Assembly (NCBI GenBank): GCA_025201365.1
Contig: JAIXMF010000019.1
Coordinates: 336,640 to 400,639 of the forward strand
Length of the DNA: 64,000 bases
Source of the DNA: Syncephalis plumigaleata
Lineage: Eukaryota > Zoopagomycota > Zoopagomycetes > Zoopagales > Piptocephalidaceae
Direction of reading: 5' to 3'
Made by a program: the position numbers and the translations under genes. The stretch's first letter is position 1. The number at the start of each line of letters is the position of its first letter. This document shows positions 12,640 through 64,000 of this stretch, piece after piece. The notes under the pieces were generated by a model that had not been told where the DNA came from, ran no database searches, and saw nothing but the letters and a program-made list of their open reading frames with translations.

Positions 12640-12722
12640 TTGGTTAATCATTCATTAGTAGCATTTATCATTAACCAGGTATTAGCCATTAATGAGGACC
12701 ATACACCTTGCTCTAATTGTCA
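12640..12722 (-). repeat. Dispersed repeat, copy 2
   Basis: Reverse complement reads TTAGAGCAAGGTGTATGGTC, then ATAAATGCTACTAATGAATG and ATTAACCAATTTACTAAT, matching 6448-6535 in order with substitutions. Confidence 0.6.
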
Positions 12723-12921
12723 TTAGCTCCTTCAATAAACTCTCAATATTCTTATAATAAATACCATCATGTTCACCATTACAAAATATATCAAATGAAT
12801 ATAATTATAATGCTGTAGCTTTATTGCTCGTTTCATTATAAATTATTACGTTCGTTCAATGTTGTTATACTCATTTCTTTACTAATACCGCTCCTTCCTT
12901 GCTCGATCTACTCGCTCACCT

Positions 12922-13030
12922 GTTCACTTGTTGTTCGCATATCTATCACCGTGACACTCGTAGGAGGTGGATATGCTCACTAGTGCACTTGTGAACGCAC
13001 TCGCTTTGTTTACGCGTTACTTCTTTATTC
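12922..13030 (-). repeat. Degenerate copy of the ~135-bp repeat of 55.3 kb
   Basis: On the minus strand 12962-12922 reads ACGAGTGTCACGGTGATAGA and on to CAACAAGTGAACAG; 13030-12985 reads GTAACGCGTAAACAAAGCGA then GTGCGTTCACAAG. Both match parts of the tandem unit at 55275-55660 with few changes. Confidence 0.6.
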
Positions 13031-14649
13031 CTCTCACTATTTGATCTGCCAATCATCATTCCTGCTTCCCTTGATTCTTTTGCTTACTCTTCCATCTCTA
13101 CCCGTCTTTCCCCGTTAGCCACTCTCCATCTGCTCCTCGCTACGCTAACACTGCACGTCGCTTACCTGAATACACTCCCATACCTGTACTCCTCTTCTCA
13201 TTACTCGTTTGTTGTTCTCGGTCACCTTCACTATTCGTATATTCCTATTCCCGTTGTTGTTATTGCTGCTGCTCTATCAATAGGTCAACACCACGTCATA
13301 CGTTTACGCGTTCTATTCGTTTTCTCTATTGCCTTTACTTCTTTGCAGCTTGTGATGCTTCTCTACGAACAGCCACTTCAATGTCGCGTTATACACACTT
13401 TATTCCGCTGTGTTTGTCCTCCACTCTATAACACTTGTACACGATAAGGCTACACTGTTTATTTGTATTCTAGTCTGGTGCTTGTACCTGTGCACGATAC
13501 TACTGCTACTTGTTGACCCTATCCCTTGTTTATCAAATTGCGATACTGCACTCTCGTCAGATCCGTACCAGTTACCCGTATTCTATCACTGTATGCTCCT
13601 ATGGGATACTCACACTGTTTGCTTACCGGTCTGTATGCGTATCGTCATCAGTCTGTATTGACTATTAGGAGTAGCTTTATATGCATACATGCAGGCTAGT
13701 CGACCAGTATTGTACTGCTATAGCTTCTCCCGGTAGTATACCACTTGCTAAAGCATATTGTTTGGTTAATACAGCTCACAGCAAACGCTGCTTCTCAATA
13801 GTTCATTGACAGCACAGCTTGTTGCTTGTACTGATAGCTCGTTCGCTTACTCGTCCACTACTCTATTCATACACTCGTATCTCTATTGTTTATTTGTAAT
13901 CTACACGGTAAGTGGTGTATACGCGGTATTCACTCTATTCACTAGTTGCTGCTACTGCTCCTCTTTCTTGTCGTATCAACTCTGTTTATTTGTTTGTTTG
14001 TTTGTATTCTATAAGCATATGTGCTCATTCGCTCTATTCACTCCTACTGCTATTCATACTACTTGTCTCTCTGCTTCTATTCTCATTCAGCCAATAAACA
14101 CTATATCAGCTTCATACATATCGCTGTATTCTCTGCACTCTATTGAACATACTTTGCTTTCAACCAATACAACTAGCTACTACTACTACTACTACTGCTA
14201 TTCCTATCATTCATATTCAGTTATCAGCAGTATGCAGTCAACTAGAATATATCACTCATCCACTCACTGATGATGCGTTAATATCGATGGATGTATATTT
14301 ACCTGTAGTCATTGTAATGAATTGTATAGCAAATCATCGAACAACACAATAGATACTGACCATCTGACGTGATCGTGCGTGCATTGACATGAATACACTG
14401 CTACTACCTAATACTTGAATCATAAACTATAGCTGAATGACAGCATAGCTTACAAGTAGAAACAATGGTTTAATGGTCATTGCCATCATAGTTGGAATGT
14501 ATTCAATGACTTGTCTATTATTTCGTATGCTCTAATGTTAGCTAGTTGCATGCCAATGCATCATGTTGATCGTGCTATTATTGGAATTAAATCGAATTCC
14601 ATTCCATTTCAATATCAATCATGCATGTTTCAATTGCGCTGAATTCATT

Positions 14650-15010
14650 ACACTATTATGGATTTTATTCACGTTAGCCGCAATATAATCAGGACCCTAA
14701 TAGTCCTCAACTATTATGACCTTTACCTCCATGCTGATTTGCAATAAAGTCAGTACCCCAATGTCATTCAATGCCTATTATTAGCGACTACACATGGCGA
14801 ACGGTTTCATGGCTCGTTTATTTGATACTACGTTTGAAAGACATTCCAATACACTATTCTGTATTCATTCATGTTAGCTGTAACAGAATCACAGCTGTAA
14901 ATGAGTACCGTAAATGCCATCCAATATCTATCGTTCGAAATTACACATGGCGAACGGTTCCCGACTCATTTATTTGATACTACGTTTGAAAACACTTCAA
15001 TGCCGCAAAC
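14650..15010 (+). repeat. Two degenerate tandem units of about 150-200 bp
   Basis: TACACATGGCGAACGGTT and TTATTTGATACTACGTTTGA occur at about 14789-14838 and again at about 14942-14990; the preceding parts (ACACTATT...TTCA.GTTAGC) also correspond. It lies just upstream of the kinase-like gene. Function unknown. Confidence 0.65.
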
Positions 15011-15137
15011 ATTGACTTTTCACCTATAAATGAGCGGCCATTTGCCCTGAACAATTCGATAGCTCACTATTTTTACCTCATTTACACGCACAACATAGGC
15101 ACATCCACTTCTTTGCTCTTAAACCGTAACGAACAAT

Positions 15138-16449
15138 ATGCGAGTAACTCCACATTCTACATTGGCTATTAGCACTTGTGCTTTAGCACTGTTATCCCAG
15201 CTACCAGCGCTCATTCAGCCTTTGGTGGTGTTTTCCAAGAAGGCAAGCTGCTCATATGTGGCATATCCGATGTCTGCTAACCTGTTTATAGGTCGTGAAA
15301 CTAAATCTACGTTTTCCAAGGAATACGTCGAAAAATACAAGGACAATCTTTTTCTGTCGAATATACGCTGGGGTGGTGGAAATGATCTTGATCTTAGTTT
15401 TGCACGAGTAGATTGGAACGGCCACGATGCGTTTATGAAATGCGACATTGCGTCTAAGGAAGTAAAAGCATTCAACGTAAGTATATCTATCTGTTATCCA
15501 AATAACCTCACTCATTATATGATATAAAACAGGCATTGGATATAATGAAAACGGAATTGAAAGAAGGGAGGTTGTCAAAGATTACGCAGTAGGTCAGCAA
15601 AATGTCATGAATCCCTTGCATCGATTTGCCTTTACTAAGGCCGGTCCGGTGGATATTAACTTGGCTGATCCCAAGCAGATGTACGTATGTCATCTTTACA
15701 GCTTTGTTGAGGGGTGAACCTAAAAGAATACCTCAAAAAAAGCACCCCTGCTCAAGCATATATTGCTGTTGCCAGAGTATTACCTGATATTATTAAAGGT
15801 AAGTATTATGATTAATTCATCAAGCATATTATTAATTACTTTGTAGGCTTGCTTTATCTTTATAATGCCGGTATTCTCTATAAGATTTGCTTATACATAG
15901 TAAGTAAGCATTTATAATCATGAGACGTGCTAACAATGGAATATAGATACCGTGCTACAGCTAGATTCAAATAAGAACGTAATTGGTGCAAAGATCATTG
16001 ATCTGGATAGAATAAGCGTATTTAAAAAGGAGCAAGGCTGGCAACGTATAAACCTGAATGATCAGGAGTATTTATCGCCAAATCCAAGTCAACGATACAA
16101 CAGCTGCAATGATTTTAAGCTTACGCTGACAAACTTTTTGCTTAATTTTGTTTTTGTCAGTAAGGTAAACCCTTTTACGTATGGCGACGTGCTTCCCGAG
16201 TCAGATGCTATTGAGTATTTGAACCATTTTAACACAAAGCTAGCTGAGTATGGCCTAAAGCAAAACGTACCACGTTTAACATCAGAATCATTTGATGCAA
16301 AGGCAGCCATTCCTGCGATGCTTCGCCTTACACGAGCAATATACACACTATGGCACGATAGCTTCCCTTGTTCCTCTCCTATGCGTGTACTAGAAGGACA
16401 ACCACCACGGATTGGTACACCTAGTAGACCAGTTAGTCCTACGTTCTAG
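15138..16449 (+). pseudogene. Secreted protein-kinase-like protein, frame broken twice
   Basis: The N-terminus (MRVTPHSTLAISTCALALLS...) looks like a signal peptide. The body has a kinase-like order: DWNGHDAFMKCD (possible lysine strand), MYVCHLYSFVEG (hinge-like), LLYLYNAGILY (region before the catalytic loop) and IGAKIIDLDRI (DFG-like DLD). Exons: 15138-15476, 15533-15798, 15847 to about 15903, 15947-16449. Two frame breaks fall in exon 2, at the GGG near 15566 and the GGGG near 15711; each would be mended by one more G. The HxD position reads K-I-C in my splice model, so catalysis is doubtful. I take it as a secreted pseudokinase-like family member, either a pseudogene or an intact gene with sequencing errors. 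Confidence 0.55.
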
Positions 16450-16834
16450 TCGATACACTATTAGTATACGGTAAGTACCGAGCAATAACTTATTCATTCT
16501 ACTAAAATACTAATATGTCATTGAATCGATTAGCAATCATATAGACAATGAGAATGTGATGACACTCGCACAGCATGACCATACAACTACTGCTATCGCT
16601 GTATGATCTAATGATTTCATCATCAATAAACATATTCACTATTCGGTACAATAGTATTATAGCTTTTAGATGTACTGCTGCAATATGATGTGCTCGCCAT
16701 TGGAAGTATAGTCAGCAATGGACTTGGCTACGTGTATACAACTGGATATACAATGACTATACAGTATGACTAATGCTAATTGATAATTATGAATGGTGAA
16801 TAATGAGTGCCCTAGCGAACATTGTTACTGTCAA

Positions 16835-16885
16835 TTAATGACACGGCAATAGATACGCAAATAACGAATAAACGAGAATGCTACT
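16835..16885 (+). repeat. Fragment related to the 55.3-kb tandem repeat
   Basis: ACGGCAATAGATACGCAAAT followed by AACGAATAAACGAG matches the corresponding part of the units at 55275-55660 with about three changes. Confidence 0.55.
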
Positions 16886-23299: not shown

Positions 23300-23495
23300 G
23301 ATGAGTAATCGAGTAAATCAACTATAGTAACGATTGAGACACCAAACTGATATATGACCTTCCATACATGAATGACGTTATTATATAAGACATATATCGC
23401 GTCATTTTTACATTCTGCTTGACTGAAGTTTGTTATATGAATCCCCTCGCACTCCATTATAAAGATGCACTGGACAAAGCGAGCACCAATATTGT
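23300..23495 (+). repeat. Upstream direct repeat flanking F-box copy A
   Basis: Contains GTAAATCAACTATAGTAACG, CATTCTGCTTGACTGAAG, CTCGCACTCCATTATAA and CACCAATATTGTCCTTTA; the same motifs in the same order recur downstream of the gene at about 25230-25440, and around copy B at 49262-49465 and 51115-51330. Confidence 0.75.
23458..23463 (+). promoter_or_regulatory. TATA box of F-box copy A
   Basis: TATAAA in the context CCATTATAAAGATGC, 51 bp before the ATG at 23514; preserved at 49418-49423 ahead of copy B. The spacing suits a very short leader. Confidence 0.5.
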
Positions 23496-23513
23496 CCTTT
23501 ATTCTTTTTCATC

Positions 23514-25136
23514 ATGTCTACTACTACTACTACTGAGATATCAAGTAATTCCAACTCGTCTTGTAGATTACTGGACTGTCTGAATACTCTTCCATTTCAT
23601 GACCAGCATGTCTTCCGTAGTCTATTTGTTCCTATTGAATTAGTGCGTTTATCAGCATGTTGTCGCTCGTTAACAAGCAGTATTCGAAATGATACAGTAT
23701 TATGGCGAAGACTATACCATAGGGATTTCCTATCGGGAGCGTATTACGACAAAGAAATGGAATTCGTATTGTGGTGTATACGCACGGATGTCAACAATCC
23801 ATGTACATCGGATAAACGAGCCGATCTACTAGAGAATGTGGACTGGTACAACACATATCGTCGACGAGTGAGCACCGAGAATAATTGGCGATATGGACGA
23901 TGCAAGACCACGCATATCAATATGAAATCTTTCATGAATGAAATAGACTATCGCAGATATGGCAATGGTAAGCGTATATTTATTACGCAGCGAAACCGCC
24001 TACGCAGAGCATCAGTCCGTCATTATACGTTAGAATATTTGCCACATCCAAATCTTAGATCAAACAACAGCGTCGTGTATAAAAGCAGATTCTCCACATC
24101 GCCAAATGCTCTTTCACTGGATACTGGTAATGAAGCTGAGTATACTTATGTCTTTGATGACCATTACGTAGCTGTAATTCCTAAAGAGATCGAGAGCGAT
24201 ACCGACTATAATGTAAAAATACTTTCTCGCAAACATGGCGGTGTTTTCACTACATTTGATGTTCCAGTACAATATCGAATGGTGGAAGTCGAGGGGAAAT
24301 GGGCATTGCTAGTGCATGACTCGAGAGATTTACTCGATGATTTGTCAATTTGTATATGTAAGTGTAGTAACTATACAATGATGTAATATAACTAGTACTA
24401 ATCATGAATATATTTAGACGATATAATGGTATTCGATATTGAGAATAGTATCATGTGTTTAGGAAGCATTAATGATACATGGAATACAACTTGTTTTTAC
24501 AAAACAACCAACAATACAGCAATAGTATACACGGCAAGAGTAGTCAAAGACAACGATGTGGGTCGTATTGATTGGGCATTATACCAGTTCTCGAGCAATA
24601 ATCCTGTTATACAATTGCGAAATGGCTGGTTTTATTTACCTGAGAGGGTAATGGGCATATTATTATTTGCTCATAATTCATACAATTCGCATATGATTAT
24701 AGGATTACATGGTCATTCTGATTATGATCTACACATAATGCATAGCGTAGCATCCAGTGGTCAAAGTCGTACTCCACGTAATTGCTACGTTATAGCTAGC
24801 CACTATATACCTATTCCATTATTAAGGGCTGGATATAAGTATTCAATACTTGGTTCCGACCCAACAAAAGTATGGACAGACTTATCCTACAATGGCAATC
24901 AACTATTACGAATGGAGTATATGGCTTTCATCAGACATATTATTGGAGATCTCTATGTTTTTACTACGTATCATAATCAAACATACAATCGATTGCTTGT
25001 AGACATCAATACAAAAGAAATAATACGCGAATTGAAAGCACCAAATAGGGGATTACCTGAATATGCAATGGCTGGTATGGCATATATCTCCAATGACAGA
25101 CGTACGCTAGCAATACAAGAATACGGCGAACTATAA
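23514..25136 (+). CDS. F-box-like protein, intact copy
   Basis: Two exons, 23514-24357 and 24418-25136, with a 60-bp GT-AG intron and kept frame; 520 residues. After a Ser/Thr-rich start, residues about 20-75 read LLDCLNTLPFHDQHVFRSLF, ELVRLSACCRSLTSSIRND and VLWRRLYHRDFLSG, which fits an F-box fold (start helix, LxxC/LW motif). The remaining 440 residues show no named repeat to my eye, though beta-rich patterns recur. A likely role is substrate recognition for an SCF ubiquitin ligase, by inference. It lies inside a duplicated block, next to a transposase tail, and is flanked by direct repeats of its own promoter, so it may come from a tandem family. Confidence 0.75.
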
Positions 25137-25229
25137 CAACTATCAATAAATCATACTATATTAGTTAATAAGAGTAGTGTTTATACATCATTAAATCATA
25201 ACACATGCTAATACTTCCTATGAACTGGA

Positions 25230-25440
25230 TGATTAATCGAATAAATCAACTATAGTAGCAATTGAGACATTAAGCTGTACAAACTGATGAATGCTTCTCA
25301 ATGCATAGAGGATGTTGCTCGATAGTGCATGTACTGCGTCATCATTTCATTCTGCTTGATTGAAGCTTGCTATCTGAATACTCTCGAATGCCATTATAAC
25401 AATGTACTGAATAAAACAAGCATCCATGTTGTCCTTTACT
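25230..25440 (+). repeat. Downstream direct repeat flanking F-box copy A
   Basis: Matches the promoter-side repeat at 23300-23495: ATAAATCAACTATAGTAGCA, CATTCTGCTTGATTGAAGCT, CTCGAATGCCATTATAACAA, CATGTTGTCCTTTACT. No F-box coding sequence follows it. Confidence 0.75.
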
Positions 25441-25475
25441 AAATGTTCCTGTCAATTCATCATAGCTCGTTAAGA

Positions 25476-26345
25476 CTGCTCTATTATTCTCCACACTTGC
25501 GTATGATTTATCTAAGTATTTTTAGTTAAATGGACACATCGTATTTCTCTTTCTTCATTTGAACAATGTCAAATACAATAAAATAAATAAATAACATTGC
25601 TGCAAATATGTAATGTCACTTCAGTATCCAATTACAACTTATCAACTAGCAGATACAAGTGACAAACATCAAGTTACATGATTGAGCATTGCTAGTAGAA
25701 CAGCGCAAGTAGAATATACAAGTGCTATTCGAGTCCAAATGCAATTGCAAATGCCATCGGTAGAGTGAACTGCATGTATGTATGTATGTAATGAATGGCC
25801 TCATAGGAACCATTTATTCAGGTACATAGGATGTAGCGCTGCAAGTGACATGAATCATTCAATACACACGTCACCATTTATTAGTCGGTGTATCACCATT
25901 GCATTAGACACGTATACTATTGTCATTAGTACATTTAAGTGATTATCGCTATTGTTAGAATACATGTAGCTAGTCATGAGATGTTGGGCAATGCCAATGT
26001 TTATTGATAATAACCAATTAACAATTAACAGCACATACCGCAACGCATGATGTGTTCTATAGAATCATACAACTAGCAATATGTTATGTACGTGCCTCTA
26101 AATAAACTTGTGTTTTCAGATAAACATGGATACACAACGATGCATGGCATGAGCCATCATCATTCATCACCGTTGATATTGTTATGTATACGTCAGGCAT
26201 GCTTAATAAATAGTCTACAAGTATACGATATTGGTTTAAGCAAGCCATTTCTCGTTTCTTTTGGTAATCTATCGTTTGTTATAGTTGTTTTCTCTTTACA
26301 CGCATTATCTGTCATTTGTTCACTTACTCGTCTGTTGTTTAAGCC
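25476..26345. other. Intergenic, no gene seen
   Basis: AT-rich spacer between block A and the P450 gene. It should contain the P450 promoter. A GTAT run lies near 25775-25790. The ORF at 26086-26418 overlaps the P450 first exon in another frame and is not called. Confidence 0.5.
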
Positions 26346-49473: not shown

Positions 49474-51040
49474 ATGTCTACTTCTACTCCTACTACTGAA
49501 ATATTGAGTAATTCCAACTCGTCTTGTAGATTACTCGATTGTCTGAATACTCTTCCATTTCACGACCAGCGTGTCTTTCGTAGTCACTTGGTCCTATTGA
49601 ATTAGTGTGTTTATCAGCATGTTGTCACTCGTTAACAAGCAGTATTCGAAATGATAGAGCATTATGGCAAGCACTATACCATAGGGATTTCCTATCGGGA
49701 GCGTATTATGCTAAAGAAATGGATTTGTATTGTGGTGTATACGCACGGATGACAACAATCCATGTACATCGGATAAACGAGCCGATCTACTAGAGAACGT
49801 GGACTGGTACAACACATATCGTCGACGAGTGAGCACCAAGAATAATTGGCGATATGGACGATGCAACCACGCGTATCAATATGAAATCTTTCATGAATGA
49901 AATAGACTATGTGGATATTGTAAGCGTATATTTATTACGCAGCGAAACCGCCTACGCAGAGCATCAATCGTCATTATACTTTAGAATATTTGCCACATCC
50001 AAATTTTAATCAAACAACAGCTTGTGTATAAAAGCAGATTCTCCACATCGCCAATGCTCTTTCACTAGATACGGTAATCAAGCTGTATAATTATGTTACG
50101 GTGATCATTACATAGCTGTATCTCCTAAGCAATCAAGGACAATATCAACTATAATGTAAAATATTACTCGCAAACATGGCGGTGTTTTCACTACATTTGA
50201 GTCCAGACAATATCGAGTGGGGCAATCGAGGGGAAATGGGCATTTTAGTGCATGACTCGAGAGATTATCGATGATTCACCAATTTGTAAGTGTAGTAACT
50301 GTACAATGATGTAATATAATTACTAATAATCAATATATTTAGACGATATAATGGTATTTGATATAGATAACATGTCATATTCAGGAAACATTGGTGATAC
50401 ATGGGTGAGGCATGTTTCTACAAAACAACCAAAATACAGCAATAGTATATACGGCAAGACTAGTCATGACGATGAGTGGGTCGTATTGAATGGGCACTAT
50501 ACCAGTTCTCGAGCAATATCTGTTGTACAATTGCGAAATGGCTGGTTTCATCTACATGAGAGGATAGAGGATGGGTGGCTAATGACGTATAATTCATACG
50601 ATTCATATATGTCATTGGATTACGTGGTCATCCTGATTATATATACACATAATCCATAGTGTAGCATCCAATGGTCAAAGTCACACTCCACGTAATTGCT
50701 ACACTATATCTAACCACATATACCTATACCATTTTAAGGGCTGGATATAGTATTCATATTAATGCCAACCAGAAAAGTATGGACAGACCTAACTTACAAT
50801 GACGATCAAGATTACGAATATGGGTACAGTTTCCATCTAACATTATTGGGATCTCTATATTTTTTTAAAGGAAGTAATGGTATACAATCGATTCTTGTAG
50901 ACATTAACACAAAGGAAATAATACGCAAGTTAAGCATCAAATAGGGAATTATGATTATGCAATGGCTGGTATGGCATATATCTCCAATGACAGACGTACG
51001 CTAGTGATAGAGGAATACGGTTATAACAGTATCAATAAAT
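49474..51040 (+). pseudogene. F-box-like pseudogene, copy B
   Basis: Starts MSTSTPTTEILSNSNSSCRL like copy A, but after RVFRSHLV a one-base loss (near 49589) brings an in-frame TAG. The correct text continues in other frames (SACCHSLTSSIRNDRALW, HRDFLSGAYYAKEMDLYCGV), and further single-base losses occur throughout both former exons, for example near 49866, 49912 and 49990. The intron with its GTAAGT donor and TATTTAG acceptor (about 50287-50341) is still visible. Later fragments MVFDIDNMSYSGNIGDTW and VQLRNGWFHLHERI match copy A's second exon. Not translatable as a full protein. Confidence 0.9.
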
Positions 51041-51586
51041 CATACTAATTAGTTAATAAGAGTAGTGTTTACACATCATTAAACATAACACATGCTAATA
51101 CTTTCTATGAACTGGATGATTAATCGAATAAATCAACTATAGTAGCAATTGAGACATTAAACTGTACAAACTGATGAATGCTTCTCAATGCATAAAGGAT
51201 GTTGCTCGATAGCACATGTACTACGCATCATTCATTCTGCTTGATTGAAGATTGCTATCTGAATCCTCTCGAATACCATTATAACAATGCACTGAATAAA
51301 ACAAACATCCATGTTGTCCTTTACTAAATGTTCCTGTCAATTCATCATAGCTTGTTAAGACTATTGTAATATGTGATATCGCGACCATCAACATCTCCCT
51401 CAACTGCTAGGGCAATGACAACTACTCAATAATAATAGTAATGCAATAATGGTGTTAACAATTGTGCAAATCTATTTATTAATAAACAGCAAAAGTTAAA
51501 GACTAGCAGTGTTAATTGATTGGAAAACACTGTATTTCCTCCTCTCTTTTCTTTGTAGTCTTTTATTTAACACAGGATTGCATGCC

Positions 51587-55274: not shown

Positions 55275-55660
55275 AATAAACGAGTAACGCGTAAACAAAG
55301 CGAGTGTGTTGACGAGTGTGTTAGTGTGCATATATCAACCAATTGAGAGTGTTACGGCAATAGATATGCGAATAACGAGTGAACAAGTGAACGAATGAGC
55401 AATAAACGAGTAAGCGAGTAACGCGTAAGCAATAAACAAGTGTGTTGACAAGTGTGTGAGTGTGCATACAGCCAGTTAAGAGTGTTACGGCAATAGATAC
55501 GCGAGTAACGAGTGAACAAGTGAACGAATGAGCAATAAACGAGTAGACGAGTAACGCGTAAGCAATAAACAAGTGTGTTCACGAGTGTGTTAGTGTGCAT
55601 ACAGCAGCCAGTTAAGAGTGTTACGGCGATAGATATGCGAATAACGAGTGAACAAAGGGC
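55275..55660 (+). repeat. Tandem repeat, ~133-136 bp unit, about 2.7 copies
   Basis: The landmark GTGTGTT starts at 55304, 55440 and 55573. Each unit contains GAGTGTTACGGC, AATAGATA, CGAATAACGAGTGAACAAG and AATAAACGAG followed by CGAGTAACGCGTAA. Related single copies lie at 12922-13030 and 16835-16885. Confidence 0.9.
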
Positions 55661-56078
55661 TGTTTATGGTGGGAGAAGAGAAGGTAAGAGAGAAGAAGAG
55701 AAGGAACATGGAATGGTGTGTAATAAAGAGTACATAGAACAGCATATAACGTACATGAAATGAAAGAGCGTTGAGTGGATGGATAGATGCATGGATGAAA
55801 TGGATGAAGGGAGATGATAGTGATGAGTGAGAGGATGGAAAGTGAAGGGATAGAGGATATGAGTGAATAATGACTAATGGGTAGTATAATGAGTTGATAA
55901 ATGATCATGAATGTTAATTAGAAATGTAAGAAGAAATGTAATGATGACATTAGTAAATGATAAGGAAATTAATGAATTTATTAATGAACATTATATTGTT
56001 TGTAATGCGAATTGTTAATTGTACAAAATAAAAAAATAAAAAATTATTACAAAATAATTACAAAATAATTACAAATAT
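55661..56078. other. Purine-rich spacer, then AT-rich 3' flank
   Basis: 55670-55870 is strongly A/G-rich (GAGAAG, GGATGG motifs); 56020-56078 has A runs and repeated TTACAAAATAA, likely the 3' flank of the minus-strand ORF ending at 56079. Confidence 0.5.
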
Positions 56079-56693
56079 TTATCGTAAAGAAGAATATCCT
56101 AACCCAGGAAGGGCCTGTTTTGATGTTAGCTGAGCAGCTAACTCGCCCGCTTCGTCAACGCAGTGAAGTCTTCCAGTTATGTCGGTTTCCTCCACCGTTT
56201 TGTACCATACCTCTCTGCCGACCCTGTCCCTTGTTCTGATTCTTTGGATTTTTTCAATAATGTCTTTAGCCAATTCAGGGCGTGCTATTTGTGTGGCGTA
56301 TCTTGGCTGGGGAACCCCTGGATTAAACAAGGCCACGTAGTCGCTACCTACGACTAAAAGACAGGAGTGGCGTTCGCTAATCGTATTGTTGTTTTGTGAT
56401 CTAACGAATCCATCGATCCATAGAAGTAGCGGCTTATTTAGTGAGCCACTAAGGTATCTTCTGCGGACAGATTCGAAATCGACACTGCCCTCTAAATACC
56501 TTCTTGATTCTTCACTCAGTCGAGCCCGTTGTTGCCCTAATAGAGGCACCAATGAAGTGACGACTGTGCCCACAACATCCAGGTTTGTTGTGGACAAGCG
56601 TCCCAACTCCTCATTTATCTCGGCACAGTTAGCTGGAATAGCACGCTGGCCGCCAAAGATCAAGGAGCTTATGTAATTCAAAACTGAAGTCAT
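56079..56693 (-). CDS. Orphan intronless ORF, 204 residues
   Basis: Uninterrupted from MTSVLNYISSLIFGGQ to the stop, with ordinary amino-acid composition: no homopolymers, mixed hydrophobic and charged residues, for example SVDFESVRRRYLSGSLNKPL, SCLLVVGSDYVALFNPGVP and DRVGREVWYKTVEETD. I do not recognise a family. There is no signal peptide or clear membrane segment. It stands out from the flanks by higher GC and by lacking introns, and lies between two tandem-repeat zones at the edge of a satellite array. It may be a lineage-specific or transferred gene. Confidence 0.65.
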   Translation of the reverse strand: MTSVLNYISSLIFGGQRAIPANCAEINEELGRLSTTNLDVVGTVVTSLVPLLGQQRARLSEESRRYLEGSVDFESVRRRYLSGSLNKPLLLWIDGFVRSQNNNTISERHSCLLVVGSDYVALFNPGVPQPRYATQIARPELAKDIIEKIQRIRTRDRVGREVWYKTVEETDITGRLHCVDEAGELAAQLTSKQALPGLGYSSLR

Positions 56694-57922
56694 TGTAGTA
56701 AATGTAAGAGATAAGAAGTATAAAGGCGAGTATAACTTTCAAAGAAGCTGGTACAATAACTCAATAATGGTAAGCTGTTTACTTGCTTTACACATGCCAT
56801 TGTTTATAGATATAACCATTGCAGATATATATCAGCTTTATAAATAGCAGAAACAACACGTCAAAATCACTTTCATAGATTCCGCTACCCAGTGCACAAC
56901 GCTGTCTACAATAAAGATTCTTTGTTTATTATCATGTCATAATGTTCAAATCTACCAATTCGTGTTCACTGTCAATCATGTAGCTTCTTGGATCGTCTAT
57001 CTGTTTTCTTTCTCTTTTGCCAACATCCTTCTTGATGTCAAAAATACATCATCGCATGTTTCGCTCTTCTTCTTTATGGATCAATTGTCACAATGCATGT
57101 TCACGGCGTTATTCGAGTTATCTTTATTGTTCTGGCATTATTGTTTGTATATCCCTATTGCTTGTCAACTGTCATTCCTTGTTATCATTGTACACTTTCT
57201 TTATTGTTCGTATGCTCATTGGCAACATGTATAATCGTGTTTATTCTATTCACATGTCTTTTATTGTTCTTTACTATCACTTTCCCTTCTACGCTACATT
57301 CAACAAGCTAAACTGCAAGTGTGCACTTAGTAGTTTGAATATGAAGGAGGCGACAATGATGCGCGACAACTATAACCGAGGTGATTGGGAAAGCGGAAGG
57401 CATAGTAAACTAATGATATGCGATTAGTGAGTGGCAAATAAAAAAATAGAGAGATTATCAATCTATGAATGGAAGGGGGAGATGGTGCGCGACAATTATG
57501 ACTGAGGTGATTGGGAAAAGGAAAAGTATAATTAACAAGTGATACATAAAACCAAGAAATTACTAATAATTCTATAGCGGGAAGAGAACTAATTGTCCTT
57601 TATTAGAGCTACTAATAATGCTCACACCTTAGTAATCAACGTTGAAATGGCGTCTTTATTAATAAATCATTCACTTTATCTGCTATTTCACTAGTGTATT
57701 CTACTTGATTTGATGCAGTGTTGTGCAACGTCAGCATCATCGATTATTTTTAATACGCTAGTGATGGTCAATTGATCAATTACGCGTCGAATGATGTCAT
57801 CTACATCGATGACCGGGGCACTGACGTTGCAATAATCCACGTTAAACTAATCGCAATATACTTAATACTATTAGATAGCCAAGAGGCGTCTCTACATATA
57901 TTTGCTAATTAAAACAGGCTGA
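56694..57922. other. Spacer before the satellite
   Basis: AT-rich. A TATAAATA at 56839-56846 precedes overlapping Tyr/Leu/Phe-rich frames (56962-57427) that are not convincing proteins. From 57560 onward, words such as ACTGACGTTGC and TACTATTAGAT hint at decayed satellite units. Confidence 0.5.
57340..57545 (+). repeat. Two imperfect direct repeats of ~125 bp
   Basis: ATGCGCGACAACTATAACCG plus AGGTGATTGGGAAA at about 57357-57391 recurs as GTGCGCGACAATTATGACTG plus AGGTGATTGGGAAA at about 57485-57518. Confidence 0.7.
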
Positions 57923-60900
57923 AATTGGTACTGACGTCACCCAATACTACGGCGAATCACGCGCATTATTAATAATAAATAGCGGTAAAATAGATCATTT
58001 ATTAATGAATCGGTCCACTTTAACATGGACTACTGAATTTTCGGATGTCGTAGTGACCGTGTAATTAGTACCATTAGATGCGCAGTGTCCGTATTAGCCA
58101 TTAATAGTCGACAGATGAGCAATAATCGGTACCGACATTATTCAATACTACGGCGAATCACGTGCATTATTAATAATAAATAGCAAATAAAATACTTGTT
58201 TATTAATAGAATCGACCCACTTTAACATGGACTACTGAATTTTCGGATGTCGTAGTGAATTTGTAATTAGTACCATTAGATGCGCAGTGTCCGTATTAAC
58301 CATTAATAGTCGACAGATGAGCAATAATCGGTACTGACGTCACTCAATACTACGGCGAATCACGTGCATTATTAATAATAAATAGCAAATAAAATACTTG
58401 TTTATTAATAGAATGGCCCACTTTAACGCGGACTACTGAATTTTCGGATGTCGTAGTGAATTTGTAATTAGTACCATTAGATGCGCAGTGTCCGTATTAA
58501 CCATTAATAGTCGGCAGATGAGCAATAATCGGTACTGACGGCACTCAATACTGCAGTGAATCACGTGCATTATTAATAATAAATAGCAAATAAAATACTT
58601 GTTTATTAATAGAATCGACTCACTTTAGCATGGACTACTGAATATTTGGATGTCGTAGTGAATTTGTAATTAGTACCATTAGATGCGCAGTGTCCGTATT
58701 AACCATTAATAGTCGACAGATGAGCAATAATCGGTACTGACGTCACTCAATACTACAGTGAATCACGTGCATTATTAATAATAAATAGCAAATAAAATAC
58801 TTGTTTATTAATAGAATGGCCCACTTTAACGTGGACTACTGAATTTTCGGATGTCGTAGTGAATTTGTAATTAGTACCATTAGATGCGCAGTGTCCGTAT
58901 TAACCATTAATAGTCGACAGATGAGCAATAATCGGTACTGACGTCACTCAATACTACGGCGAATCACATGCATTATTAATAATAAATAGCAAACAAAATA
59001 CTTGTTTATTAATAGAATGGCCCACTTTAACGCGGACTACTGAATATTTGGATGTCGTAGTGACCGTGTAATTAGTACCATTAGATGCGCAGTGTCCGTA
59101 TTAACCATTAATAGTCGACAGATGAGCAATAATCGGTACTGACATTACTCAATACTACGGCGAATCACGTGCATTATTAATAATAAATAGCAAATAAAAT
59201 AGATCATTTATTAATGAATCGGTCCACTTTAACGTGGACTACTGAATTTTCGGATGTCGTAGTGAATTTGTAATTAGTACCATTAGATGCGCAGTGTCCG
59301 TATTAACCATTAATAGTCGACAGATGAGCAATAATCGGTACTGACGTCACTCAATACTACGGCGAATCACGTGCATTAATAATAATAAATAGCAAACAAA
59401 ATACTTGTTTATTAATAGAATGGCCCACTTTAGCGTGGACTACTGAATATTTGGATGTCGTAGTGACCGTGTAATTAGTACCATTAGATGCGCAGTGTCC
59501 GTATTAACCATTAATAGTCGACAGATGAGCAATAATCGGTACTGACGTCACTCAATACTACAGTGAATCACGTGCATTATTAATAATAAATAGCAAATAA
59601 AATACTTGTTTATTAATAGAATGGCCCACTTTAACGTGGACTACTGAATTTTCGGATGTCGTAGTGAATTTGTAATTAGTACCATTAGATGCGCAGTGTC
59701 CGTATTAACCATTAATAGTCGACAGATGAGCAATAATCGGTACTGACGTCACTCAATACTACGGCGAATCACATGCATTATTAATAATAAATAGCAAACA
59801 AAATACTTGTTTATTAATAGAATGGCCCACTTTAACGCGGACTACTGAATATTTGGATGTCGTAGTGACCGTGTAATTAGTACCATTAGATGCGCAGTGT
59901 CCGTATTAACCATTAATAGTCGACAGATGAGCAATAATCGGTACTGACATTACTCAATACTACGGCGAATCACGTGCATTATTAATAATAAATAGCAAAC
60001 AAAATACTTGTTTATTAATAGAATGGCCCACTTTAACGTGGACTACTGAATTTTCGGATGTCGTAGTGAATTTGTAATTAGTACCATTAGATGCGCAGTG
60101 TCCGTATTAACCATTAATAGTCGACAGATGAGCAATAATCGGTACTGACGTCACTCAATACTACGGCGAATCACGCGCATTATTAATAATAAATACAAAT
60201 AAAATACTTGTTTATTAATAGAATGGCCCACTTTAACGCGGACTACTGAATATTTGGATGTCGTAGTGACGTGTAATTAGTACCATTAGATGCGCAGTGT
60301 CCGTATTAACCATTAATAGTCGACAGATGAGCAATAATCGGTACTGACATTACTCAATACTACGGCGAATCACGTGCATTATTAATAATAAATAGCAAAT
60401 AAAATACTGTTTATTAATAGAATCGGCCCACTTTAACATGGACTACTGAATTTTCGGATGTCGTAGTGAATTTGTAATTAGTACCATTAGATGCGCAGTG
60501 TCCGTATTAACCATTAATAGTCGACAGATGAGCAATAATCGGTACTGACATTACTCAATACTACGGCGAATCACGTGCATTATTAATAATAAATAGCAAA
60601 TAAAATAGATCATTTATTAATGAATCGGTCCACTTTAACATGGACTACTGAATTTTCGGATGTCGTAGTGAATTTGTAATTAGTACCATTAGATGCGCAG
60701 TGTCCGTATTAACCATTAATAGTCGACAGATGAGCAATAATCGGTACTGACGTCATTCAATACTACGGCGAATCACGTGCATTATTAATAATAAATAGCA
60801 AATAAAATACTTGTTTATTAATAGAATGGCCCACTTTAACGCGGACTACTGAATATTTGGATGTCGTAGTGAATTTGTAATTAGTACCATTAGATGCGCA

Positions 60901-63900
60901 GTGTCCGTATTAACCATTAATAGTCGACAGATGAGCAATAATCGGTACTGACATACTCAATACTACGGCGAATCACGTGCATTATTAATAATAAATAGCA
61001 AATAAAATAGATCATTTATTAATGAATCGGTCCACTTTAACATGGACTACTGAATTTTCGGATGTCGTAGTGAATTTGTAATTAGTACCATTAGATGCGC
61101 AGTGTCCGTATTAACCATTAATAGTCGACAGATGAGCAATAATCGGTACTGACGTCATCAATACTACGGCGAATCACGTGCATTATTAATAATAAATAGC
61201 AAACAAAATACTTGTTTATTAATAGAATGGCCCACTTTAACGTGGACTACTGAATTTTCGGATGTCGTAGTGAATTTGTAATTAGTACCATTAGATGCGC
61301 AGTGTCCGTATTAACCATTAATAGTCGACAGATGAGCAATAATCGGTACTGACGTCATCAATACTACGGCGAATCACGGCATTATTAATAATAAATAGCA
61401 ATAAAATAGATATTTATTAATAGAATGGCCCACTTTAGCGTGGACTACTGAATTTTCGGATGTCGTAGTGAATTTGTAATTAGTACCATTAGATGCGCAG
61501 TGTCCGTATTAACCATTAATAGTCGACAGATGAGCAATAATCGGTACTGACGTCACTCAATACTACGGCGAATCACGTGCATTATTAATAATAAATAGCA
61601 AATAAAATAGATCATTTATTAATGAATCGGTCCACTTTAACATGGACTACTGAATTTTCGGATGTCGTAGTGAATTTGTAATTAGTACCATTAGATGCGC
61701 AGTGTCCGTATTAACCATTAATAGTCGACAGATGAGCAATAATCGGTACTGACGTCATTCAATACTACGGCGAATCACGTGCATTATTAATAATAAATAG
61801 CAAACAAAATACTTGTTTATTAATAGAATGGCCCACTTTAAGCGTGGACTACTGAATTTTCGGATGTCGTAGTGAATTTGTAATTAGTACCATTAGATGC
61901 GCAGTGTCCGTATTAACCATTAATAGTCGACAGATGAGCAATAATCGGTACTGACGTCACTCAATACTACGGCGAATCACGTGCATTATTACTAATAAAT
62001 AGCAAATAAAATAGATCATTTATTAATGAATCGGTCCACTTTAACATGGACTACTGAATTTTCGGATGTCGTAGTGAATTGTAATTAGTACCATTAGATG
62101 CGCAGTGTCCGTATTAACCATTAATAGTCGACAGATGAGCAATAATCGGTACTGACGTCACTCAATACTACGGCGAATCACGTGCATTATTAATAATAAA
62201 TAGCAAATAAAATACTTGTTTATTAATAGAATGGCCCACTTTAACGTGGACTACTGAATTTTCGGATGTCGTAGTGAATTTGTAATTAGTACCATTAGAT
62301 GCGCAGTGTCCGTATTAACCATTAATAGTCGACAGATGAGCAATAATCGGTACTGACGTCACTCAATACTACGGCGAATCACGTGCATTATTAATAATAA
62401 ATAGCAAAAAAATACTTGTTTATTAATAGAATGGCCCACTTTAACGTGGACTACTGAATTTTCGGATGTCGTAGTGAATTTGTAATTAGTACCATTAGAT
62501 GCGCAGTGTCCGTATTAACCATTAATAGTCGACAGATGAGCAATAATCGGTACTGACGTCACTCAATACTACGGCGAATCACGTGCATTATTAATAATAA
62601 ATAGCGTAAAATAGATCATTTATTAATAGAATGGCCCACTTTAACGTGGACTACTGAATTTTGGATGTCGTAGTGAATTTGTAATTAGTACCATTAGATG
62701 CGCAGTGTCCGTATTAACCATTAATAGTCGACAGATGAGCAATAATCGGTACTGACGTCACTCAATACTACGGCGAATCACGTGCATTATTAATAATAAA
62801 TAGCAAATAAAATACTTGTTTATTAATAGAATGGCCCACTTTAACGTGGACTACTGAATTTTGGATGTCGTAGTGAATTTGTAATTAGTACCATTAGATG
62901 CGCAGTGTCCGTATTAACCATTAATAGTCGACAGATGAGCAATAATCGGTACTGACGTCACTCAATACTACGGCGAATCACGTGCATTATTAATAATAAA
63001 TAGCAAATAAAATACTTGTTTATTAATGAATGGCCCACTTTAACGTGGACTACTGAATTTTCGGATGTCGTAGTGAATTTGTAATTAGTACCATTAGATG
63101 CGCAGTGTCCGTATTAACCATTAATAGTCGACAGATGAGCAATAATCGGTACTGACGTCATTCAATACTACGGCGAATCACGTGCATTATTAATAATAAA
63201 TAGCTAAAATAGATCATTTATTAATGAATCGGCCACTTTAACGTGGACTACTGAATTTTGGATGTCGTAGTGAATTTGTAATTAGTACCATTAGATGCGC
63301 AGTGTCCGTATTAACCATTAATAGTCGACAGATGAGCAATAATCGGTACTGACGTCATTCAATACTACGGCGAATCACGTGCATTATTAATAATAAATAG
63401 CAAATAAAATAATCATTTATTAATGAATCGGCCCACTTTAACGTGGACTACTGAATTTTGGATGTCGTAGTGAATTTGTAATTAGTACCATTAGATGCGC
63501 AGTGTCCGTATTAACCATTAATAGTCGACAGATGAGCAATAATCGGTACTGACGTCACTCAATACTACGGCGAATCACGTGCATTATTAATAATAAATAG
63601 CGTAAAATAGATCATTTATTAATGAATCGGCCCACTTTAACATGGACTACTGAATTTTGGATGTCGTAGTGAATTTGTAATTAGTACCATTAGATGCGCA
63701 GTGTCCGTATTAACCATTAATAGTCGACAGATGAGCAATAATCGGTACTGACGTCACTCAATACTACGGCGAATCACGTGCATTATTAATAATAAATAGC
63801 AAATAAAATACTTGTTTATTAATAGAATGGCCCACTTTAACGTGGACTACTGAATTTTGGATGTCGTAGTGAATTTGTAATTAGTACCATTAGATGCGCA

Positions 63901-64000
63901 GTGTCCGTATTAACCATTAATAGTCGACAGATGAGCAATAATCGGTACTGACGTCACTCAATACTACGGCGAATCACGTGCATTATTAATAATAAATAGC
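57923..64000. repeat. Satellite DNA array, ~201-bp unit, 30 units, open at window end
   Basis: The landmark ATGTCGTAGTG recurs at intervals of 201-202 bp (58047, 58249, 58450, 58652, 58853, ...). The core CGCAGTGTCCGTATTA occurs 30 times to the window end. Each unit carries TACCATTAGATGCG, TTAATAGTCGACAGATGAGC, the palindrome TGACGTCA (sometimes TGACATTA), TACTACGGCGAATCACGTGC and ATTATTAATAATAAATAGC. A variable linker comes in two forms, ACTTGTTTATTAATAGAATG and GATCATTTATTAATGAATCG. No ORF. The array continues beyond 64000. Confidence 0.97.

Follow-up and report, generated by a model that had tools for sequence, protein, structure and literature searches.

The window, a 64,000-nucleotide stretch of Syncephalis plumigaleata DNA, forms the right-hand end of the 400639-bp contig C101 in an assembly of 32.6 Mb and 383 contigs, and it closes with a satellite array, array A (57923–64000, + strand), of 30 units of approximately 201 bp. 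Array A is part of a composite block of repeat modules. The preferred reading, a possible but tentative one, is that the array could be the outer satellite layer of a regional, inverted-repeat pericentromeric block. Observed directly are the order and polarity of the modules, mirror-image arms on contig C1, different arrays behind near-identical flanks, and locus-specific families of units. In the mechanism proposed, heterochromatin on the repeated arms would position and shield a kinetochore site close to the centre, and unequal exchange would lengthen, shorten and homogenise the satellite layer. We infer that the A-bearing blocks may be arms of centre-type blocks, and infer likewise the heterochromatin and any centromere function.

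Module order and orientation of the block

Starting at the contig body and moving to the contig end, the block consists of satellite A (201 bp), satellite B (191 bp), satellite C (201 bp), module D (a degenerate GA/CT-repeat), module E (a 65-77-bp array) and a 1.5-kb core. On C57, A (547854-551791), B (551726-552729) and C (553042-557437) are followed by D and E near the contig end at 560501. C79 and C184 display the modules in reverse order, running on into the core, and C315 shows core, E, D and C. The last module before the contig end is E on C57 and the core on C79, whereas C184 continues past its core with a further D-like stretch and a dispersed repeat.

Alignment of single units gives the relative orientation of the satellites. 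Unit A aligned with unit B reaches a score of 109 in the same orientation, against 59 for the best of 200 shuffles, and 62 (best shuffle, 57) when reversed; unit A against unit C scores 98 reversed (shuffle best, 68) and 52 forward (59). Thus A and B share an orientation that is opposite to that of C, and satellite C is a relative of the A family, turned round. On the four longest contigs with A (C57, C79, C101 and C113), the A units are directed at the nearer contig end, with the long contig body on the A side. A position at a contig end is weak evidence, as contigs break at repeats in any case.

Left of array A, contig comparison and alignment reveal one unit of satellite C (57633–57840, + strand), with 90-95% identity to the C units of C57, C184, C315 and C79 and in opposite orientation to A. 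Junction sequence directly left of the array (57777–57920, + strand) is common to C305, C57, C336 and C79 (89-100% identity), where it includes part of a C unit, and its last 75 bp are also present on C113. Farther left, two repeats are shared with C113 in inverted orientation, one at 56639–57532 (95.2%) and one at 55550–56071 (91.4%); part of the latter is also found on C79 (89.9%). Tandem Repeats Finder shows in addition a 133-bp tandem repeat of 2.8 copies (55277–55655, + strand), related to 108-109-bp repeats that lie beside the blocks on C79 and C184.

The palindrome on C1 and rival readings of the blocks

Contig C1 (3046566 bp) carries in mid-contig a 21.6-kb palindrome, from approximately 1526106 to 1547690, with its centre near 1537506. 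Both arms are made of core-E-D-AT units with a repeat spacing of about 7.1 kb and are 98.9% identical over 6616 bp (35 substitutions, 39 gap positions). No mirroring is found beyond the palindrome at 12 kb and 30 kb from the centre, and different gene-like frames, by eye a CAP-Gly protein and an ABC1-type kinase, lie close outside it. A simple mirrored-read artefact was rejected on the substitutions between the arms and on the difference in the outer sequence.

Thus inverted repeats surround a centre, as in inverted-repeat centromeres; this full-length palindrome reading is for C1 only. The centre is not the non-repetitive core of a regional inverted-repeat centromere, as it is itself palindromic and recurs on six other contigs. 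Strong matches to it, in both orientations, are found on at least seven contigs, C1 included (the others are C2, C13, C223, C236, C283 and C372; 40 of 42 candidates scored), with one centre on each of the seven. Some of these are perhaps haplotype copies, and several contigs longer than 1 Mb have no centre. Small contigs that repeat gene matches of large ones, e.g. the histone matches on C376/C168 and C58/C223, suggest uncollapsed haplotypes; the histone search cannot separate CENP-A from other histones. Cores run minus then plus on C1, C2, C13, C223, C236, C287 and C372, and C287 shows no strong centre match among the matches listed.

The motif TTAGGGTTAGGG is present, in a conserved setting, in all seven core copies examined for this stretch (four on C1 and one each on C79, C184 and C315). 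The four C1 cores are close copies of each other, so the seven motifs are not seven independent cases. The motif points outward: away from the centre on C1, into the contig body on C79, and toward the satellites on C184 and C315. This polarity argues for A-blocks as arms that would extend outward from internal blocks, and against their being chromosome ends.

In favour of the pericentromeric reading are the module orders on C57, C79, C184 and C315, the mid-contig palindrome, the recurrence of its centre and of minus-then-plus cores on other contigs, the outward motifs, the orientation of A on the four longest contigs, and the locus-specific families described below. Dispersed cores, D-like sequence beside the telomere of C316 and the repetitive, palindromic centre count against it, and no match to satellite A or C was found on any of the centre-bearing contigs. 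No contig joining array A to a palindromic centre was found in the assembly. An exon-by-exon search gave no CENP-C_C match, with the control below the cut-off in 4 of 14 genomes. The reverse-transcriptase matches listed, from 150 of 179 candidates scored, all fall outside the C1 palindrome and the blocks of C57, C184 and C315; one is located on C13, between cores.

Yeast X and Y' elements are subtelomeric repeats with TTAGGG-type sites near chromosome ends. A similar role for the present blocks, as telomere-associated (subtelomeric) repeats that would lie near chromosome ends, exchange sequence among chromosomes and bind telomere proteins through the core motif, is less likely than the pericentromeric reading but is a serious rival to it. 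Searches with four exact copies of TTAGGG or TTAGGC give matches only at the end of C316, where TTAGGC and then TTAGGG repeats are preceded by D and AT modules. This is the sole telomere found, and together with the TTAGGGTTAGGG copies of the cores and the location of A arrays near contig ends it favours the subtelomeric reading. The C336 array is also closer to C101 (mean best identity 97.4%) than to C57 (94.4-94.5%) despite 98.7% identity of C336 and C57 left of the array (2812 of 2850 aligned bases), a pattern compatible with exchange among chromosomes. However, C57 and C79 have the core side at the contig end and D, C, B and A toward the body, opposite to C316, where D leads into the telomere. 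The C1 palindrome sits in the middle of a 3-Mb contig with its motif pointing away from the centre, opposite to what a telomere fusion would give, and the C316 stretch read shows no match to A, B or C. The blocks resemble X and Y' elements in bearing TTAGGG-type sites near ends, but differ in their polarity into the contig body and in being found inside contigs as well. For the earlier proposal of a centromeric satellite, the block layout makes a centromeric place of the array plausible, but a D-like module also borders the one telomere. A match between C316 and C184, considered as a telomere link, belongs to a separate 1.6-kb inverted-repeat element.

A second serious rival, likewise less probable, is that the blocks were built by transposable elements and have no host role, a dispersed element of about 5 kb (1.5-kb repeat, D-like, AT, core) having inserted and recombined into palindromes and satellites. 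The dispersal of the modules fits such an origin. The core search gives at least 41 strong matches at 40 places (40 of 67 candidates scored; the listing lacks the core of C184, which was identified through C315), and single copies are found inside contigs away from palindromes, e.g. at C1:2529578, C113:223151 and C135:222623. The 1.48-kb neighbour of the core has at least 40 matches (40 of 110 candidates scored), and many copies of both are away from the blocks. The two are found together in one orientation on C1 (2526-2531 kb), C113, C135 and C362. A search with part of D, in which 40 of 63 candidates were scored, yields at least 318 matches, among them several inverted pairs. Against this origin, the C1 palindrome breaks off at a different place in the unit on each outer side, on the right within a core, whereas a single insertion, e.g. 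of a TIR transposon, would be expected to have matching ends. The two block frames searched (core and C1 centre) match no Pfam family, which also counts against it, but dead or non-autonomous elements would be compatible with this result.

A bolder version of the pericentromeric reading has the centromeres built from telomere-type sequence, with mirror arms, a telomere motif pointing outward as it does at a true chromosome end, and a reversed satellite pair bordering genes. It has been proposed that centromeres arose from telomeres, and telomere-built centromeres, if true, would be a living, testable case of that origin. This version is decidedly unlikely.

Units of array A and turnover between loci

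Tandem Repeats Finder gives array A a period of 201 and 30.3 copies, stopping exactly where C101 ends, and a conserved anchor occurs 30 times, which delimits 29 full units. The earlier note's thirty units up to the window end are therefore borne out. Two unit motifs checked do not occur in the window outside the array. Unit forms with TGAATTTTCGG and TGAATATTTGG alternate unbroken across eight units, 58840 to 60247; AGTGACCGTG accompanies the second form at 59059, 59462 and 59864, with an additional occurrence at 58052. The dimer of about 402 bp claimed earlier is thus real but local. Over the 29 full units, identity at lag 2 amounts to 95.80%, whereas shuffles average 94.77% and attain the observed value in 8 of 2000 cases. 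Lag 1 (1670 of 2000 shuffles) and lag 4 (1075 of 2000) show no rise over the whole array.

Unit alignment places a local four-unit duplication in units 4-11 (58673–60279, + strand), where unit 4 is identical to unit 8 and unit 5 to unit 9. In this stretch, which was picked post hoc, lag-4 identity is 97.8% against 95.2% (50 of 5000 shuffles), and the lag-2 value is reached by 389 of 5000 shuffles. A tetramer, also suggested in the earlier note, holds here and not elsewhere in the array. Two rarer variants had been said to recur about 800 bp apart. ACAGTGAATCACG does so, with copies at 58755 and 59560, but TGACATTACTC has four copies, at 59140, 59945, 60345 and 60546, which a plain spacing of 800 does not describe. 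A regular higher-order repeat of the alpha-satellite type, i.e. a fixed multi-unit repeat iterated throughout, is not found, only short local dimer and tetramer stretches. The pattern of array A is short-range duplication rather than a regular higher-order repeat.

Near the right end, unit alignment and motif search confirm the loss of a C (TTTTGG) in six of the seven last units, units 23-29 (62489–63883, + strand), with the exception at 63054. Relative to the majority, units 1-10 of C101 have no deletions and 14 of the 19 later units have 1-5 each; as deletions are confined to later units, some of the lost bases may reflect errors of the consensus. Assembly or consensus error as a partial source of the array detail more generally (deep unit order, lost bases), to which the termination of arrays at contig ends on C101, C305, C336, C113 and C184 would also point, is very improbable given locus-specific substitution patterns in five arrays, a C57 array assembled on both sides, and the lost-base form on C305 as well, where one unit is identical to C101 units 24 and 29.

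The unit does not display a single conserved box: among 98 units, no stretch longer than 19 bp is conserved at a level of 96% or above, a length matched by 1558 of 5000 shuffles. An identity as rDNA spacer subrepeats was rejected, as neither the window nor the 12 loci scanned (98739 bases) gave an Rfam match, and a search for plasmid relatives gave no match.

Genome-wide, unit A is found on seven contigs, and these head-to-tail, near-identical units at several loci are those of a satellite DNA. C79 has only about two A-like units. Unit statistics refer to C101, C305, C57, C336 and C184; C113 and C79 show no full unit by anchor. On C57, 19 anchors give 17 units, with one interval outside the length limits. 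In the shuffle comparison of these five arrays, C184 (22 units) has a lag-2 excess (15 of 2000 shuffles), C57 has excesses at lag 1 (13 of 2000) and, more weakly, at lag 4 (67 of 2000), and C305 and C336 show no excess.

C305 (12277 bp) is a second copy of the C101 locus. The 6.6 kb preceding the array, from window position 51276, contain one difference (52992), and units 1-4 are identical, yet the unit order diverges at the start of unit 5 (58874, + strand). This contrast fits a fast turnover of the array, and locus copies with near-identical flanks and different arrays also fit the unequal exchange invoked in the earlier note. Such copies are a direct view of satellite turnover. Units are more alike within than between arrays, the nearest neighbour being in the same array for 15 of 17 units on C57 and 12 of 14 on C336, i.e. 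locus-specific families. C101, C305 and C184 intermix, as expected if all are one locus. The nearest neighbour of nine of the 22 C184 units is on C101, and of one on C305; thus C184 may represent the far side of the C101 array.

Comparison with known systems

If the blocks are centromeric, they would represent an inverted-repeat centromere bordered by satellites, in an assembly good enough for the design of ChIP and Hi-C experiments. No satellite-bordered centromere of such form in an early-diverging fungus is among the top matches listed from the open-licence literature. On chytrid centromeres, the literature search gives one passing mention (PMC11797018).

The mosaic centromeres of Mucor circinelloides have cores of about 1 kb, a 41-bp motif and pericentric Grem-LINE1 elements (PMC9089191, PMC7377519). 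The present repeats are similar as candidate pericentric DNA in gene-poor regions, and CENP-C_C is without a match here in the exon-by-exon search. They differ in consisting of satellites and palindromes; LINE-type retroelements of the Mucor kind are not seen in the C1, C57, C184 and C315 blocks among the reverse-transcriptase matches listed.

In the repeat-associated centromeres of Candida tropicalis, inverted repeats of 2-5 kb that are highly alike between chromosomes flank a non-repetitive 2-5-kb core, and kinetochore proteins are mapped (PMC4741521). C1 likewise has inverted repeats around a centre. However, its centre is palindromic and repetitive, its arms are tandem 7-kb units, and the satellite layer is on other blocks.

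In Tribolium madens, satellites lie in macro-dyad symmetry in megabase arrays (PMC13081366). As in that species, two related satellites of one ancestor form arrays in opposite directions in the present block, but here the arrays are of kilobase size and are joined by further, non-satellite modules.

Retroelements and an inverted-arm element

Reverse-transcriptase matches number at least 150 across the whole assembly (150 of 179 candidates scored), and many of those listed have the same score and fall within long open frames. The number of matches and the equal-scoring frames suggest that retroelement families have been recently active in the assembly. A 1.6-kb element is found on two contigs, at C316:4253-5868 and C184:1-1615, and consists of 721-bp perfect inverted arms flanking about 150 bp. 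The two copies share a 99.8% identity. Because of the inverted arms and this identity on two contigs, the element is probably a young non-autonomous mobile element.

The 1.48-kb dispersed repeat

Positions 12692-16867 of the window represent one copy of a dispersed repeat that includes a 1.48-kb part, which is found in at least 40 rows genome-wide (40 of 110 candidates scored). Further sequence of this copy is 75-92% alike to C79:6331-9997 and to C113. The 1.48-kb repeat also forms inverted pairs, approximately 4.45 kb across, at C112:1522069-1526534 and C353:24710-29161.

Divergence between the two locus copies

The window and C305, the second copy of its locus, diverge strongly over one 1.7-kb block (window 49585-51275, C305:1-2163), yet the adjoining 6.6 kb displays a single difference. 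The C305 block carries long open frames, which the corresponding window block lacks and which have an 86% identity to window positions 23313-25477. This latter segment overlaps an F-box-like frame scoring slightly below the Pfam cut-off.

Module D and the C316 telomere

In module D, the degenerate GA/CT-repeat part of the repeat blocks, one strand of the 20-51-bp repeats on C1, C315, C316 and C79 is stop-free over long stretches, which on C316 reach as many as 720 codons. When translated, these stretches appear repetitive. The telomere at C316:10015-10194 is of mixed type, with inner TTAGGC repeats and TTAGGG repeats at the tip.
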